This document shows, one piece after another, positions 5,269 through 35,996 of a stretch of 64,000 nucleotides of DNA (its first letter is position 1; each line of letters starts with the position of its first letter). Source of the DNA: Actinomycetota bacterium (GTDB lineage Bacteria > Actinomycetota > Thermoleophilia > Solirubrobacterales > Solirubrobacteraceae). The translations under genes were made by a program, and so were the position numbers. The notes beneath the pieces were generated by a model. That model was not told the origin of the DNA, did no database searches, and worked only from the letters and a program-made list of their open reading frames with translations. The stretch lies in assembly GCA_005888335.1 (NCBI GenBank), contig VAWY01000025.1, forward strand, positions 1 to 64,000, written 5' to 3'.

Positions 5269-5285
5269 GTCGATCCACCTCTTTC

Positions 5286-5412
5286 GTCGGCCTGCGGGGT
5301 TAGCTGACGGGCTGGCGCGAAAAGAGCCTGCGCCTCCCGCGGTTTCACCGCGGAATTAGCCCCAACTACTCGGTTCCCCCGCTCCTCGGCGCGTGCGTCG
5401 AGGATTCGGCGT
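5286..5412 (-). promoter_or_regulatory. ydaO-yuaA type cyclic di-AMP riboswitch
   Basis: Read on the minus strand, the leader of the NlpC/P60 gene contains the hallmark blocks of the ydaO/yuaA riboswitch in order: GGGGGAACCG (5371-5380), TTGGGGCTAATTCCG (5351-5365) with a CCGCGGTGAAACCGCGG hairpin, and GTCAGCTAACCCCG (5295-5308). The element ends about 20 bases before the GTG start. This class binds c-di-AMP and normally turns expression off. Boundaries are approximate because P1 was placed by eye. Confidence 0.9.
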
Positions 5413-5465
5413 CTACAACGTCTCCCCCTGTTGTCGGCAGGGAGCCGTGCAATCTTGAGTGCAAT

Positions 5466-19057: not shown

Positions 19058-20230
19058 TCAGACGCGCTGGATGAGCGTGCCCGTGCCCAGGCCGCCGCCG
19101 CAGCACATGGTCACGAGGCCGATCTCCCTGTCGTCGTCCTCGAGCTCGTGCAGCAGCGTGGTGATCAGGCGCGCGCCGGTCGAGCCGAGCGGATGGCCCA
19201 GGGCCATCGCGCCGCCGCGCGGGTTCACGCGGTCCATGTCCGGGTTGTGCTCGCGCTGCCAGGCCGCCACGACGGGCGCGAAGGCCTCGTTGATCTCGAC
19301 GTAGTCGATGTCGTTGATCGTGATCCCGTTGCGCTTGAGCAGCTTGGCGGTCGCCGGGATCGGGCCCTCGAGCATCTTGACCGGGTCGCAGCCGACCGTG
19401 GTCTGGTCGACGATCCGCGCGCGCGGCGTGAGCCCGAGCTGCTTGGCCTTGTCGGCGCTCATGAGCAGCACGGCGGCGGCGCCGTCGGAGATCTGCGACG
19501 AGTTGGCCGCGGTGATCTTGCCGTCCGGCTTGAAGACCGGCTTGAGCTGGGAGATCGTCTCCAGGCTCGTGTCGGGCCGGATGCCCTGGTCGGTGGCGAA
19601 CGTGTCGCCGTTGACCTTGAACTCGACGATCTCGCGGGCGAACTTGCCCTCCTCGGTCGCCTTGGCGGCGAGCCGGTGCGAGCGCACGGCGAGCTCGTCG
19701 AGCTCGGAGCGCGGGATCTCCCACTGGTCGGCGATCATCTCGGCGCCGAGCCCCTGGCCGACGATGTTGTGCTTGTCGAGCAGCTGCTTCGTGAAGGCGT
19801 TGCCGAACTGCTGCTGGGTGGCCGCGCCGTCGGCGAAGGTGATGTGGCCCATGTGCTCGACGCCCGAGCCGATGACCACATCGTGGACGCCGGCGGCGAT
19901 GAGCGCGGCGCCGAAGTTGACGGCCTGCTGGGCCGAGCCGCACTGGCGGTCGACGGTCGTGGCCGCCGCCTCGATGGGCAGGCCCTCCTGCAGCCAGGCG
20001 TTGCGGGCGATGTTGAAGGCCTGCTCGCCGAACTGCTGCACGCACCCGGCGATCACGTCCTCGACCTCGGCCGGATCGACGCCCGCGCGGGTGAGGACCT
20101 CGGTGTACGTCTTGCCGAGCAGGTCGGCGGGATGGGTGTCCTTGTAGTAGCCCTTCTCCTTGTGACCGCGGCCGATCGGCGTGCGAACCGCCTCGACGAT
20201 CACGACCTCGCGGCCCTCCTGCTGTCGCAT
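19058..20230 (-). CDS. Acetyl-CoA acyltransferase (thiolase)
   Basis: 390-residue thiolase of beta-oxidation or acetoacetyl-CoA metabolism. Acyl-accepting Cys lies in DRQCGSAQQ (~residue 90); catalytic His in [10 protein letters not shown] and second Cys in TMCCGGGLG are near the C-terminus, so the active site is complete. Length and motifs fit FadA/AtoB-type biosynthetic or degradative thiolases; the chain-length preference is not readable. It is transcribed divergently from the 3-hydroxyacyl-CoA dehydrogenase gene 38 bp away, which supports a shared fatty-acid pathway and a shared regulatory region. Confidence 0.95.
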
Positions 20231-20268: not shown

Positions 20269-21072
20269 GTGAGTCATGTACCTTACGGCACCTTGCAGGA
20301 GCGACTGGGCATCGCGGGCTCGGGGGCGATCGCCTGCGGCCTGGCCACCGTGGCCGCCGGACAGGGCGAGGTCCTGCTGTGGGCGCGCTCGGAGGACTCC
20401 CAGAACCGCGCGCGCAGCGCGGTGGACGAGCGCTGCGACGCCCCGGAGCGCGTGCGCGTGGTCGGCGACCTCGACGCGCTCGCCGAGGCGACCTTCATCG
20501 TCGAGGCGATCGTCGAGGACCCGGCCGCCAAGTTCGACCTGCTGCGCCGCCTCGGGCCCCTGGCCGCCGACGACGCGGTCCTCGGCAGCACGACCTCGTC
20601 GCTGTCGGTCGCCGAGCTCGCCGCCGCCTCGGGCCGGCCCGAGCGGTTCGTGGGGCTGCATGTCTTCAACCCGGTGCCGAAGATGAAGCTGGTCGAGCTG
20701 GCCTTCCCGCCACAGGTCAACGGCGCGACGCGCGAGCGGGCGTTCGCGCTGTGCGAGGCGCTCGACAAGACGGCGGTCGAGGTGCCCGACCTTCCGGGCT
20801 TCGTCGTCAACCGCCTGCTGTTCCCGTACCTCTTCAGCGCGGTGCGGCTGCAGGAGGAGACCGGCCTGGCGGCCGAGGCGATCGACCAGTGCATGACGCT
20901 GGGCGCCGGGCACCCGATGGGGCCGCTCGCGCTGCTGGACTTCGTCGGGCTCGACGTGGCGCAGGCGATCGGCGAGGCGATCGGCGCCGAGGTGCCCGCG
21001 CGCGTGCGAGCGCTCGTGGCCGAGGACGCGCGCGGCAAGAAGGACGGGCGCGGCTTCTACGACTACGGGTAG
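20269..21072 (+). CDS. 3-hydroxyacyl-CoA (3-hydroxybutyryl-CoA) dehydrogenase
   Basis: 267 residues, two-domain NAD-dependent dehydrogenase. Rossmann motif GIAGSGAIACG is near the N-terminus, VEAIVEDPAAK follows, the catalytic His lies in GLHVFNPVPKMKLVEL, and the C-terminal dimerisation domain ends in DGRGFYDYG. The GTG start at 20269 is provisional: TTG at 20293 would start three residues before RLGIAGSG, closer to the usual family start. The final 32 bp are duplicated 54 bp downstream, outside the gene. Confidence 0.92.
   Translation: MSHVPYGTLQERLGIAGSGAIACGLATVAAGQGEVLLWARSEDSQNRARSAVDERCDAPERVRVVGDLDALAEATFIVEAIVEDPAAKFDLLRRLGPLAADDAVLGSTTSSLSVAELAAASGRPERFVGLHVFNPVPKMKLVELAFPPQVNGATRERAFALCEALDKTAVEVPDLPGFVVNRLLFPYLFSAVRLQEETGLAAEAIDQCMTLGAGHPMGPLALLDFVGLDVAQAIGEAIGAEVPARVRALVAEDARGKKDGRGFYDYG
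21035..21066 (+). repeat. 32-bp direct repeat, copy 1 (inside 3-hydroxyacyl-CoA dehydrogenase 3' end)
   Basis: Encodes KKDGRGFYDY of the dehydrogenase C-terminus. Identical to 21089-21120 except for one base (T/G at the tyrosine codon). The coding context shows this is the parent copy. Confidence 0.85.
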
Positions 21073-21075
21073 CGG

Positions 21076-21097
21076 CCTTCTTGCCGTCGCAAGAAGG
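21076..21097. terminator. Hairpin between convergent genes
   Basis: CCTTCTTGC-CGTC-GCAAGAAGG: a perfect 9-bp stem with a 4-base loop, between the dehydrogenase stop and the convergent redoxin stop. No T-run follows, so it may act as a bidirectional terminator without a classical U-tract. Its right arm is made from the duplicated 32-bp segment. Confidence 0.55.
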
Positions 21098-21120
21098 ACG
21101 GGCGCGGCTTCGACGACTAC
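21089..21120 (+). repeat. 32-bp direct repeat, copy 2
   Basis: Second copy of 21035-21066, now non-coding on the + strand. Its last bases provide the stop codon (complement of CTA at 21117-21119) of the convergent redoxin gene. Confidence 0.85.
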
Positions 21121-22148
21121 AAGTCGGGCAACGGGTAGTAGGTCTCGGCGCCCGCCGCGCGCACGTCGCTGAGCCAGTCGGAGTCGTAGTGCTCGGTGGG
21201 CCCCTGCAGCGGGTCCTCCATCGACCACGCCTGGCGCCGGTAGGTCCAGTTGTCGGGGTCGAGGCGGTGCGCGGCGCGGAAGTGCTCGCGCGCGCCGTCG
21301 ACGTCGCCGGTCCCGTACAGGTGCGTCCCGAGCTCGAAGTGCGCGGCCGCCTCCGAGAGCTCCGGCGCCCGCGGGCGCGAGCGCGCGACGACCTCGTCGG
21401 GCGGCAGCGCGTGCGCGTCCCAGTTGCGCAGCGCATCGGCGTACACCTCGGGCTTGACGCGGATCTTCGACGCCTCGGCGAGCGTCTCGAGCATGATCGG
21501 CGGCGCGTCCTTGGGGATGCCGTGCTCGCGCAGCATGTCGCGCAGCACGCTGCGGCCGGGGTGGGCGACCTCCGGCGGGCGCACGAGCACGCCGTCCTCG
21601 TCGATCCAGACGCCCGTCGGGACGTTCGTGATGCCCAGCAGCTCGTCGAGGCGATGCGCCTGGTCGATGAGCGACGGGTGCTGGGCCTTCGCAGCGTCGA
21701 TCCAGGGCCCGGCCGCCTCGGCGCCGCCCGTGTCCAGCGCCACCGTGACGACCTCGATGCCCTGCGGTCGCAGCTCCTCGCGCAGCTCCTGCCACACGGG
21801 CAGGTCGAAGCGGCACCCTCACCACGACGCCCAGGCCACCATGACGATCCGCGTCCCGCGCAGCGATCGCAGGGAGAACGGGCGGCCGTGGCGGTCGGGC
21901 AGCTCGAGGTCGGGCATCTGCGCCGACGCCAGCGCCCGCCCGCCGGACTCCGGGCCGAGCGCCCACAGGCCGCGGCGCTCGTCGGCGACCAGCGGCATGC
22001 CGATCCGGCGCGCGAGCTCGCGGGCGTCGAGCGGGCCGTCCGGGAGCGGCACGCAGAGGTCGCCCTTGCACGCGCCCTCGGGCTTGACCTCCCAGCCGGT
22101 CCGCGCCGCGAGCTCGGCGGGGTCGACCTCGAGCGTCTCGAGGATCAT
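21117..22148 (-). CDS. Redoxin-TPR protein with in-frame UGA: candidate selenoprotein
   Basis: 343 codons with one in-frame TGA at codon 110 (bases 21821-21819). Upstream: an N-terminal domain with ACKGDLCVPLP, then a redoxin start (DLELPDRHGRPFSLRSLRG) leading to IVMVAWASW. After the TGA the same frame continues GCRFDLPVWQELREE, GIEVVTVALDTGG and the cis-Pro segment NVPTGVWIDEDG, completing a TlpA/thioredoxin-like fold, then a TPR-like C-terminus (HFELGTHLYGTGDVDGAREHF). The TGA falls where such proteins have the redox Cys, and a SECIS-like hairpin follows. I therefore read it as selenocysteine (WASW-U-GCR); a nonsense mutation is the alternative. The ATG at 22148 starts the conserved part. 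Confidence 0.75.
21788..21804 (-). promoter_or_regulatory. Candidate bacterial SECIS hairpin
   Basis: Fourteen bases after the in-frame TGA, the minus-strand RNA can fold as CCUGCC-CGUGU-GGCAGG: 6-bp stem, 5-base loop. The loop starts 21 bases after the UGA and has G as its second base. Known bacterial SECIS elements sit just downstream of UGA with a G in the first two loop positions, so position and loop both fit. Confidence 0.55.
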
Positions 22149-22171
22149 GCGCGCAACCGTAGAGGACCGAC

Positions 22172-22200
22172 GGCCGGCCCGCTCCCCGTGCGGGCCGGCC
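22172..22200 (-). terminator. Strong GC hairpin downstream of the CNNM/CorC-like gene
   Basis: GGCCGGCCCGC-TCCCCGT-GCGGGCCGGCC, a perfect 11-bp stem with a 7-base loop, lying between the end of the CorC-like gene (22326) and the start of the redoxin gene (22148) on the minus strand. Probably a terminator for the former or a leader structure for the latter; no U-tract is present. Confidence 0.5.
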
Positions 22201-22325
22201 GCCTGCGCGAGCGGCGGGTCCACCCCCATGTCCCCGCCGCCTCTCCTCCCTGTGATCGGAGACCTTCCGCCGTCCCACGGGCGCAAGGCGTTTCCTGGAA
22301 CGTGCCCGAGGACGAAAACTTGCGT

Positions 22326-23648
22326 CTAACCGTCGCGCGCGCCGGCCGCTGGAGCGGTGCGGCGCTCGCGGATGCGCACCGCCTCGATGCGGTTCTCGCG
22401 CACGGACTCGACGCGGATCGAGTAGCCGTCGGCGGTGATCGTGTCGCCGCGGCGCGGCAGGCGGCCGAGCTCGTTGAAGACGAAGCCGCCGACCGAGTTG
22501 TACGCGTCGGTGTCGACCGGCAGATGCAGCCCGTAGTCGTCGAGGTCGCTCACCGCGACGTGGCCCCGGACGAACCAGTCGCCGTTGGCCAGCCGCCGCA
22601 CCTCGCCGCCGGCCGGGTCGGTCTCGTCGGAGATCTCGCCGACGACCTCCTCGACGATGTCCTCGACGGTGACGATCCCGGCCACGCGCCCGTACTCGTC
22701 GACGACGACCGCCATCGACGAGCGCTCGCGCTGCAGGTCGGCCAGCAGGTCGTCGAGCGGCTTGGTCTCGGGGACGATCACGGCGTCGTGCACGACGCTC
22801 TCGATCGAGGACTTCGGGCCCTCGGTCAGCAGCAGCCGGGCCAGCTCGTTGGCGTGGACGATGCCCCGCACGCGGTCGCGGTTGTCGTCCACGGTGACGA
22901 CCAGGCGCGTGTGTCCCGAGGAGACCGCGCGGCGCAGCGCGGTCTCGACGTCCTCGCTGAGGTCGACGGTGACGACCGCGGGGATGGGCGTCATCACCTG
23001 GCGCGCCTCCTGCTCGTGCAGGTGGAAGACGCCGGTGAGCATCCCGGCCTCGCCCGGGTCGAGCACGCCGCCCGCGCGGGCCTGGGAGATCAGCAGCTTG
23101 AGCTCCTCGGGCGTCGTGTCCTCCGCGCCGATCGTCTCGGGGTCGACGCCGAGCAGCCGCAGGATCCGGTTGGCGATCGCCGTCAGCACCACCGAGAACG
23201 GGTTGAAGAGGACGCGGCAGAGCTCGAGCGGGCGGGCGACGCGCCGGGCCACACCCTCGGCGTGGCCGATCGCGTAGTACTTCGGCACCAGCTCGCCGGC
23301 GATGATGTGCGACGACGTGATGATCAGGTAGGCGAGCGTCGCCGCCAGCGCCACGGCGGCGCCGTGACCGAGCGGGCCGCCGAGCGGGTCCTCGAGCAGG
23401 TGGGCGAACGCCGGCTCGCCGATGGCGCCGATGCCGATCGACGCCATCGTGATGCCGACCTGGATCGTCGAGACGTACTCGTTGATCTCGTCGATCTGGT
23501 GCAGGGCGAGCCTGGCGCCGCGCGCGCCCTCCTCGATGTCCTGCTCGAGCCGCGCGCGCCGGCTGCGCACGAGCGCGTACTCGGCGATGACGAAGAAGCC
23601 GTTCAGCCCGACGAGCAGCGCCGTCAGGAAGATCAGGAGCGCGGTCAT
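22326..23648 (-). CDS. CNNM/HlyC-CorC family membrane protein
   Basis: 440 residues. An N-terminal DUF21/CNNM transmembrane domain (four hydrophobic segments, ~1-200, with STIQVGITMASIGIGAIGE and ITSSHIIAGELVPK) precedes a pair of CBS domains (~215-340, RQVMTPIPAVVTVDLSED, VVVDEYGRVAGIVTVEDIVEE) and a C-terminal CorC/HlyC domain (~350-430, TDAYNSVGGFVFNELGRLP). Such proteins act in magnesium/cobalt efflux or related ion homeostasis; older 'hemolysin' names are not meaningful here. All domains are intact. Confidence 0.93.
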   Translation of the reverse strand: MTALLIFLTALLVGLNGFFVIAEYALVRSRRARLEQDIEEGARGARLALHQIDEINEYVSTIQVGITMASIGIGAIGEPAFAHLLEDPLGGPLGHGAAVALAATLAYLIITSSHIIAGELVPKYYAIGHAEGVARRVARPLELCRVLFNPFSVVLTAIANRILRLLGVDPETIGAEDTTPEELKLLISQARAGGVLDPGEAGMLTGVFHLHEQEARQVMTPIPAVVTVDLSEDVETALRRAVSSGHTRLVVTVDDNRDRVRGIVHANELARLLLTEGPKSSIESVVHDAVIVPETKPLDDLLADLQRERSSMAVVVDEYGRVAGIVTVEDIVEEVVGEISDETDPAGGEVRRLANGDWFVRGHVAVSDLDDYGLHLPVDTDAYNSVGGFVFNELGRLPRRGDTITADGYSIRVESVRENRIEAVRIRERRTAPAAGARDG

Positions 23649-27412: not shown

Positions 27413-28828
27413 TCACGGGAAGCAGTACGAGTCCGAGCTCGCGTCGCCGCCCTGCAGGCGCACCTGGTGCGGGCGCTCGCCTGAGTACTCGACGAAGAAG
27501 TCGGGGTCGACCTGCAGCCCGTCCCCCTCCGCCGCGTCGAGCTTGACCATCCAGCCGGCGATCCCCTCGGGGTAGAACTGGCGGTCCCACGACGCGTAGA
27601 GCGAGTTGGTCAGGTACACGCGCCGGCCGTCGCGGCTGACCTCGACCATCTGCGGCCCGCCCTGCAGCGCTCCGGCGGACGGGTGCGGCGACTGGCCGAC
27701 GATCCCGCCGAGGCGCACGCTGCCGGTCTCGCGCGCGTTGTGGGGGTCGCTGACGTCGTAGCGCTTGAGCTCGCCGGTGCCCCAGCACGAGACGTACAGG
27801 TCGCGGTCGTCGACGCTCAGCGCGATGTCGGTGACCAGCGGCGGCACGGCGCCGAACGGCTGGATCACCGGCGGCAGCTGCTCGGCCTCGGCGGGCTCGG
27901 GCGGGATCTCGATGACCTTGGTCGCCTCGACCTTGCCGTTCTTGCGCTCCCACAGCCAGACGCTCGCGCTCAGGTCGGCGGTCGAGACGACGACGCCGAC
28001 GAAGCCGTAGGGCTTGCGCGGGTCGTGCGCCGGGCGCAGCTCGAGCACCATCTGCTGCTCGCCGCCGAGGTCGATCGCCTGCTGGTGGCGGCGGCGCCTG
28101 AGGTCCCAGACGTGCAGCCGGTGGCCGTACTGGCCGGCGAGCAGCAGCTCGGCCTGCACGCCGTCCTCGACCATCGAGGGCGTCCCCCACTCGCTGGTCA
28201 GCAGGGTGTCGTAGCCGATGTTCCACCACACGTCGTAGGCGAGCTCCTGCGGCCCACGGTCGATCTCCCACTGCCCCTTGGGCTCGAACGTCTCGTGGTC
28301 GAGGAGGAACACGCCGCCCGGGCCGCCTCCGTCGGGGGCGCCGAGCGCGCTGAAGTACAGCCCGTCGGGCCCGCAGTGGACGGTGTGCGGACGCGAGTAG
28401 CCGGTCCTGTGGTGCAGCTCGTCGGGCTCGATGACCTTGACGAGCTTGGGGTTGTGCGGGTCCTCCTTGACGTCGACGACGTGGATGCGCGACGACTTCA
28501 GGCCGGGGATGAGGAAGTAGCGGCGCTCGACGTGCGGGTGCGGCGCCCAGGGGCACAGCGCGCTCGAGCACGCGTTCCAGCCGAAGTGGTGCAGCTCGTC
28601 GCCCACGTTGGGCATGTCGAGCCGCCCGACGACCTGCCCGTAGGTCGGCGACCCCTCCTTGAGGTCGACGACCGTGAGCGCATCGGGCCGGGCGTCACCG
28701 GTCGCCCCGGGCGCGGCGGCGCCGGTGCCCGCCTCGTTGAGGGTGACGACGTAGGCGACCTCCTCGCGGGGCGCCTCGGCGGCGCTGCGGGGCGAGGGGT
28801 AGAACGTGGGATCGGGCTTCCAGGGCAT
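27413..28828 (-). CDS. Selenium-binding protein SBP56 / methanethiol oxidase
   Basis: 471 residues, full length for the SBP56/SELENBP1 family. Hallmarks: DELHHFGWNACSSALC near residue 78, SRIHVVDVKEDPHNP, TGYSRPHTVHCGPDGLYFSALG, ELAYDVWWNIGYDTLLTSEWGTPSMVE and YGHRLHVWDL. Bacterial members (MtoX) oxidise methanethiol to formaldehyde, H2S and H2O2 and need copper; conserved His and Cys are present. The protein is cytoplasmic or periplasmic without a clear signal peptide here. The name refers to selenium binding and does not imply selenocysteine. First gene of a three-gene unit. Confidence 0.93.
   Translation of the reverse strand: MPWKPDPTFYPSPRSAAEAPREEVAYVVTLNEAGTGAAAPGATGDARPDALTVVDLKEGSPTYGQVVGRLDMPNVGDELHHFGWNACSSALCPWAPHPHVERRYFLIPGLKSSRIHVVDVKEDPHNPKLVKVIEPDELHHRTGYSRPHTVHCGPDGLYFSALGAPDGGGPGGVFLLDHETFEPKGQWEIDRGPQELAYDVWWNIGYDTLLTSEWGTPSMVEDGVQAELLLAGQYGHRLHVWDLRRRRHQQAIDLGGEQQMVLELRPAHDPRKPYGFVGVVVSTADLSASVWLWERKNGKVEATKVIEIPPEPAEAEQLPPVIQPFGAVPPLVTDIALSVDDRDLYVSCWGTGELKRYDVSDPHNARETGSVRLGGIVGQSPHPSAGALQGGPQMVEVSRDGRRVYLTNSLYASWDRQFYPEGIAGWMVKLDAAEGDGLQVDPDFFVEYSGERPHQVRLQGGDASSDSYCFP

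Positions 28829-34148: not shown

Positions 34149-35996
<1,848 letters not shown>

Follow-up and report, generated by a model that had tools for sequence, protein, structure and literature searches.

Does a single TGA triplet within what otherwise reads as one redoxin gene end a protein, or does it encode selenocysteine, and is the product then a selenoprotein of a new kind? This question was raised by the minus strand of a stretch of 64,000 nucleotides (hereafter called the window), for which the original prediction had proposed one gene split by an in-frame TGA in the place of the catalytic cysteine. Readthrough translation bore out the single gene, giving a frame of 343 codons in which TGA occurs only once, as codon 110 (translated here as a residue); without recoding, the region falls into two separate frames, 21819-22286(-) and 21117-21797(-). 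The TGA lies between WASW and GCRFDLPVWQEL, and NVPTGVWID and then the C-terminal TPR come further on. Codon usage was also normal on either side, as had been anticipated: G+C at third positions was 0.99 ahead of the TGA and 0.98 after it, composition by codon position was alike in both parts, and a comparison with five TGA-bearing relatives revealed that the third position was the most divergent one both before and after the TGA. The ATG start at 22148 agrees with that of the relatives, the majority of which start with MIL. Both Pfam models for this fold, AhpC-TSA (residues 76-188) and Redoxin (residues 75-191), span the TGA, and together with the TPR_2 match they uphold the redoxin fold with a TPR tail that had been read across it (cf. 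Table 1). In the N-terminal domain, the CX4C pattern was present in 109 of 110 full-length rows, the exception (L029) having a longer spacing.

Table 1. Coordinates of the candidate selenoprotein gene, its parts and its neighbors in the window.
Feature	Position	Strand	Remarks
Selenoprotein gene, NF041054 (WAxxUGC_long)	21117..22148	-	343 codons + stop; readthrough translation, family-model match
TGA codon 110, almost certainly read as selenocysteine	21819..21821	-	Site at which CxxC redoxins have their first catalytic Cys
Cys112, proposed resolving residue of the U-G-C center	21813..21815	-	Residue from translation; role suggested by alignment
Redoxin / AhpC-TSA domain, residues 75-191	21576..21926	-	Pfam; fold ResA-like
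Pro177 (NVPTG)	21618..21620	-	Invariant in 29/29 rows; taken to be the cis-Pro expected in a thioredoxin fold
Cys27 to Cys32, CX4C of N-terminal domain	22053..22070	-	Pattern G.C....C[VI]
TPR, residues 267-300	21249..21350	-	Pfam TPR_2
bSECIS-like hairpin	21788..21804	-	6-bp stem CCUGCC/GGCAGG, loop CGUGU
CNNM-like membrane protein	22326-23648		Upstream of the selenoprotein gene; under family cut-off
3-Hydroxybutyryl-CoA dehydrogenase-like gene	20269-21072		Convergent; under family cut-off

Judged by its sequence, the window gene is a copy of an already named selenoprotein family, so that its product does not represent a new type. Its product matched NCBIfam NF041054.1 ("ResA-like WAxxUGC motif-containing protein"), a curated equivalog model (WAxxUGC_long) with a cut-off of 300 bits, at 508.9 bits over positions 1-352 of 354, and at the site where this family has UGA or Cys (WAxx-U-GC), the window reads WASW-TGA-GCR. 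The product stayed under the cut-offs of the ResA and TlpA models (NF002854, NF047696), scoring 46.9 of 170 bits for ResA and 46.3 of 230 bits for TlpA, and where these proteins have a CxxC active site, it has U-G-C, one residue shorter. The label of a new selenoprotein had to be dropped, because NF041054.1 already covers the product from end to end; furthermore, Prx-like selenoproteins of the UGC type had been published as a group in 2008 (PMC2398784). The excerpts available from that source, on the Global Ocean Sampling data, count 46 Sec and 855 Cys members in a "Prx-like (UGC-containing)" group, and those from two reviews include, among the known selenoproteins, a Prx-like or TlpA family member that contains UGC (PMC9312934, PMC13188914). 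In these excerpts, the literature protein has the same pfam00578-type redoxin, the UGC motif and many Cys homologues; a TPR tail is not stated there, the likeness being one of redoxin type and motif only. The architecture, which had been called uncommon, turned out to be ordinary for the NF041054 family, since the N-terminal CX4C and the TPR tail are common to the relatives. With that family, the window protein shares the full-length match, the U at the named motif, and the succession of N-terminal domain, redoxin and TPR tail; nothing essential sets it apart, and the window copy comes from a Solirubrobacteraceae-like genome. It has UGA, whereas its better-named neighbors in the tree, e.g. Patulibacter (P0049), have Cys. 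A literature search found the string "WAxxUGC" in none of the papers it covered and, judged on titles and abstract openings, recognized no paper on the NF041054 family; the accessible part of PMC5029168 holds nothing on it.

The closest solved relatives of the product, by sequence as well as by fold, are ResA, TlpA and DsbE-like proteins, and its best fold matches in the PDB are ResA chains. In the AlphaFold model (mean pLDDT 91.0, pTM 0.88), a helix begins at residue 111. In the family profile, U falls opposite the first Cys of the 3kcm CPPC center, with one residue missing before the second Cys. The placement of the UGA at the first catalytic cysteine of redoxins, which had been predicted, was thereby supported, and relatives have UGA or Cys there. 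ResA (Bacillus), TlpA (Bradyrhizobium) and DsbE-type oxidoreductases resemble the window protein in their redoxin fold and in where the first catalytic residue lies, but they have a CxxC center (CPPC in 3kcm) instead of U-G-C, and they are without the N-terminal CX4C domain and the TPR tail, both of which the window protein has. From these alignments and the model, the product is most likely a thiol-disulfide oxidoreductase similar to ResA and TlpA, in which a U-G-C center replaces CxxC. That the selenoprotein acts instead as a peroxidase, in the manner of the peroxiredoxins, appears unlikely, though it deserves to be weighed. Peroxiredoxins have the motif TxxC, and the WAxW ahead of U is of the ResA/TlpA type, without the Thr of that motif; the solved relatives named above speak against a peroxidase too. 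In favor of this activity are AhpC-TSA being the top Pfam domain model (45.3 bits vs. 38.9 bits for Redoxin), the name "peroxiredoxin" that Cys relatives bear in their sources, and the designation of the UGC group as Prx-like in the available portions of reviews.

For the preferred thiol-disulfide oxidoreductase, the following course can be proposed. SelB with Sec-tRNA would bind the hairpin in the mRNA and selenocysteine would be inserted; Sec110, placed directly before the residue-111 helix, would attack the substrate as in ResA and TlpA, and Cys112 would resolve the intermediate as a U-G-C selenenylsulfide. Cys112 is suggested as the resolving residue because the loop that usually forms CxxC is one residue shorter in this family. 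Possible roles are electron relay for the N-terminal CX4C domain and the holding of a partner protein for the TPR tail. Inspection by eye revealed no signal peptide, hence the protein probably acts in the cytoplasm.

The identity of codon 110 was then followed among relatives. For the motif alignment, 34 sequences (the window and 33 loci) were tried and 32 aligned; the two off-pattern loci, L038 and L049, were left out of the motif, codon-uniformity, tree, loop-residue and hairpin-model counts. The motif site was TGA in 30 of the aligned sequences and TGC in two (L032 and L034). A survey of 247 genomes, all from the same class as G001, revealed 29 genomes over the NF041054 cut-off with 30 places, 28 of them with one TGA and two stop-free; 28 of these places were aligned (26 TGA, two TGC), L038 and the second place in G126 being left out. 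Across the phylum, 16 of 396 genomes matched at 1e-40. Of their 17 places, 13 carry one TGA, one was listed as having TAG, and three are stop-free, two of the latter comprising only the part after the site. The listed TAG (genome G466) would have suggested another recoded stop, but it was rejected, as the codon at the site is TGA; since the flanking parts of this copy (L063) lie in other frames on both sides of the TGA, the copy is broken or badly assembled. SelB and tRNA-Sec matches over cut-off were present in G466. One genome, that of Ilumatobacter nonamiensis (G003), contains two different TGA-bearing copies of the family (L003/L007 and L008). Plasmids were also considered as a source of relatives, but none of 46 records covered 80% of the query and all were below 60% identity.

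Database proteins gave a corresponding picture. Among the best 120 of 1563 matches, 78 were full length, and the homologues, for which the residue at position 110 had been named as a check, carried Cys there in 78 of 78 cases; the other 42 matches start a few residues after the site. The in-frame UGA therefore aligns with Cys of homologues, which is the test applied to bacterial selenoproteins. In a tree of 152 rows (30 UGA, 80 Cys and 42 fragments), the window and all 42 fragments formed one group of 43 rows with a support of 99, as is to be expected if they share the TGA, their upstream DNA being unseen. At least six Sec/Cys changes were required, whether the fragments were counted as Sec or dropped; this tree came from a short, quick search that left 48 of 149 inner branches open, and the well-supported branches by themselves force three changes of the Cys label. 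Both TGC loci fell inside a 14-row Cys group, which is united with two UGA rows, L033 and L035, at a support of 99.

The 247-genome survey also brought to light a sister group under the NF041054 cut-off, comprising 58 places at 115-261 bits, 45 with one TGA and 13 without. In the four members that were fetched (L050-L053), TGA stands at the WASW-U-GCR site in every case, and the stem codons are shared by three, L053 differing. Their best NCBIfam match is NF041054, at 237.8-270.5 bits, that is, below the cut-off; as far as these four members are concerned, no scanned NCBIfam model covers the UGA-site sister group over its cut-off.

Downstream of the UGA, the window encodes a hairpin that starts 14 nt, and whose loop starts 20 nt, after this codon. 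According to the Fig. 2 legend of PMC13188914, a bSECIS has a loop of 3-9 nt with G among the first two positions, a stem of 4-16 bp, a loop position 16-37 nt past the UGA and an energy of ≤ -7.5 kcal/mol. The window hairpin passes this model in our own coding of these constraints, as do 24 of the 30 TGA sites (the failing ones being L025, L040, L041, L042, L044 and L048), whereas of the remaining codons in these genes 337 of 8999 pass, and of the two TGC loci neither. By itself, the window hairpin is not unusually stable (z -0.71; 43 of 200 shuffles fold equally well). Few columns of the gene surpass the stem in uniformity of codon choice. Among 54 conserved columns of four- or six-codon residues, the hairpin Leu codon (CTG in 29 of 30) is the most uniform and the hairpin Pro codon (CCC in 25 of 30) ranks fourth, with two non-hairpin columns between them, while the hairpin Gln codon is CAG in 29 of 29 rows; in two other columns, CAG reaches 21 of 28 each. 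The loop codon starts with G in all 30 TGA rows and specifies Val or Gly in each of them; in Cys rows, the residue is Val or Gly in 60 of 80 and Leu or Met in 20 of 80, and both TGC loci have Leu (CTC). While the window alone would argue only weakly for a functional hairpin, these patterns across the TGA genes argue for it strongly.

The UGA form should also be accompanied by the selenocysteine machinery, and a comparison of relatives indicates that it is accompanied by SelA, SelB and tRNA-Sec. SelA and SelB were searched for in 59 genomes, namely 27 with TGA, two with TGC, and 30 with weak matches alone, the latter being hand-picked in the order of their handles, thus not at random, with G014, G051 and genomes without a match passed over. 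SelA exceeded its cut-off in 27 of 27 TGA genomes, neither TGC genome and 14 of 30 weak-match genomes, and SelB in 26 of 27, neither and 13 of 30, respectively; assembly completeness was not given, so that gaps, those of the TGC genomes included, are inseparable from true absence. The one TGA genome in which SelB was missed (G063) yielded SelA and tRNA-Sec. Twelve genomes were searched for tRNA-Sec, which was over cut-off in eight of ten TGA genomes and neither TGC genome, and ARAGORN assigned the anticodon TCA in all eight positive ones; tRNA-Sec was also found in G001-G003. In nine further TGA genomes, SelB was missed in G571, G309 and G002, of which the first two had no tRNA-Sec over cut-off either, and G002 has one. 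Fisher tests on the motif-alignment rows gave 0.007 and 4e-6, but they ignore relatedness and are not relied on. G001 has two tRNA-Sec genes with anticodon TCA (L014 and L016), reflecting a duplicate or a mixed assembly. The 64-kb window contains no tRNA-Sec, and its sole match to the longest reading frames from the selA-selB regions of two relatives, at 34173-34487, was rejected as SelB, the gene being that of the GTPase TypA (TIGR01394, 918.3 bits).

These data also bear on the idea that the TGA is a sequence error or the mark of a pseudogene, in which the Cys codon of an ordinary redoxin is read as TGA. TGA is indeed one base away from a Cys codon, TGC occupies the site in L032 and L034, and L063 is disrupted by frame changes flanking its TGA. 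However, an identical TGA recurs across separate genomes, in 30 of the 32 sequences aligned, the codon pattern is intact on both sides with synonymous constraint in the hairpin, and the 42 downstream fragments among the best 120 matches group with the window, which makes this explanation extremely improbable. Equally remote is the notion of two genes, in which the TGA would be a genuine stop that ends a short N-terminal protein, the TPR protein being encoded separately. This notion could appeal to database entries of 226 residues that start past the site, some of which bear the name hypothetical or TPR protein. It would, however, divide the redoxin domain right at the active site, and it is opposed by the 78 uninterrupted Cys proteins among the best 120 matches and by the hairpin constraint. 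The comparative evidence thus favors recoding, and UGA at codon 110 almost certainly encodes selenocysteine at the redox active site. We consider it very probable that the explanation holds as a whole, i.e. that the gene encodes an NF041054 selenoprotein with a conserved UGA and hairpin, and that the Sec machinery accompanies the UGA form in relatives, its product most likely being a Sec110/Cys112 oxidoreductase.

In the surroundings of the gene, neither the CNNM-like nor the dehydrogenase-like neighbor has an evident link to it. For the thiolase at 19058-20230, the relatives that bear a name belong to Solirubrobacteraceae, Solirubrobacterales and Baekduia (84-86% identity), so that the window stems from an actinobacterium of this vicinity. 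By eye, some 31 bases that form the 3' end of the selenoprotein gene recur near-exactly about 54 bases on (21036-21120), where the second copy falls within the last part of the convergent dehydrogenase gene, with a short inverted repeat between the two; this region may be a two-way terminator. Elsewhere in the window, 27413-28828(-) encodes a protein with a distant resemblance to the methanethiol oxidase MtoX (115 bits against a cut-off of 650), MtoX-like proteins being also called selenium-binding protein 56, and a c-di-AMP riboswitch (ydaO/yuaA leader) is found at 5274-5421(-), with 74 bits against a gathering score of 38.

The window selenoprotein itself is what a specialist would expect to find. 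What remains of interest is the Sec/Cys switching together with the absence of sel genes in the two TGC genomes, and the uncovered UGA sister group. Both TGC loci with Leu CTC come from genomes without SelA, SelB or tRNA-Sec matches over cut-off. Tentatively, and with slightly more doubt than belief, we suggest that the RNA signal constrains the protein, and that lineages losing the sel genes switch to Cys and then become free at the loop residue. Although modeled at NCBI, the family is still split in metagenome proteins, 42 of the best 120 matches starting past the site, so that the use of Sec in soil actinobacteria may be under-counted. Since at least six Sec/Cys changes are required in the sampled tree, the family may provide a series of naturally occurring Sec/Cys switches for which the sel status is known, and this repeated switching, with sel absence in the two TGC genomes, would make it a workable system for studying what Sec buys a redoxin.
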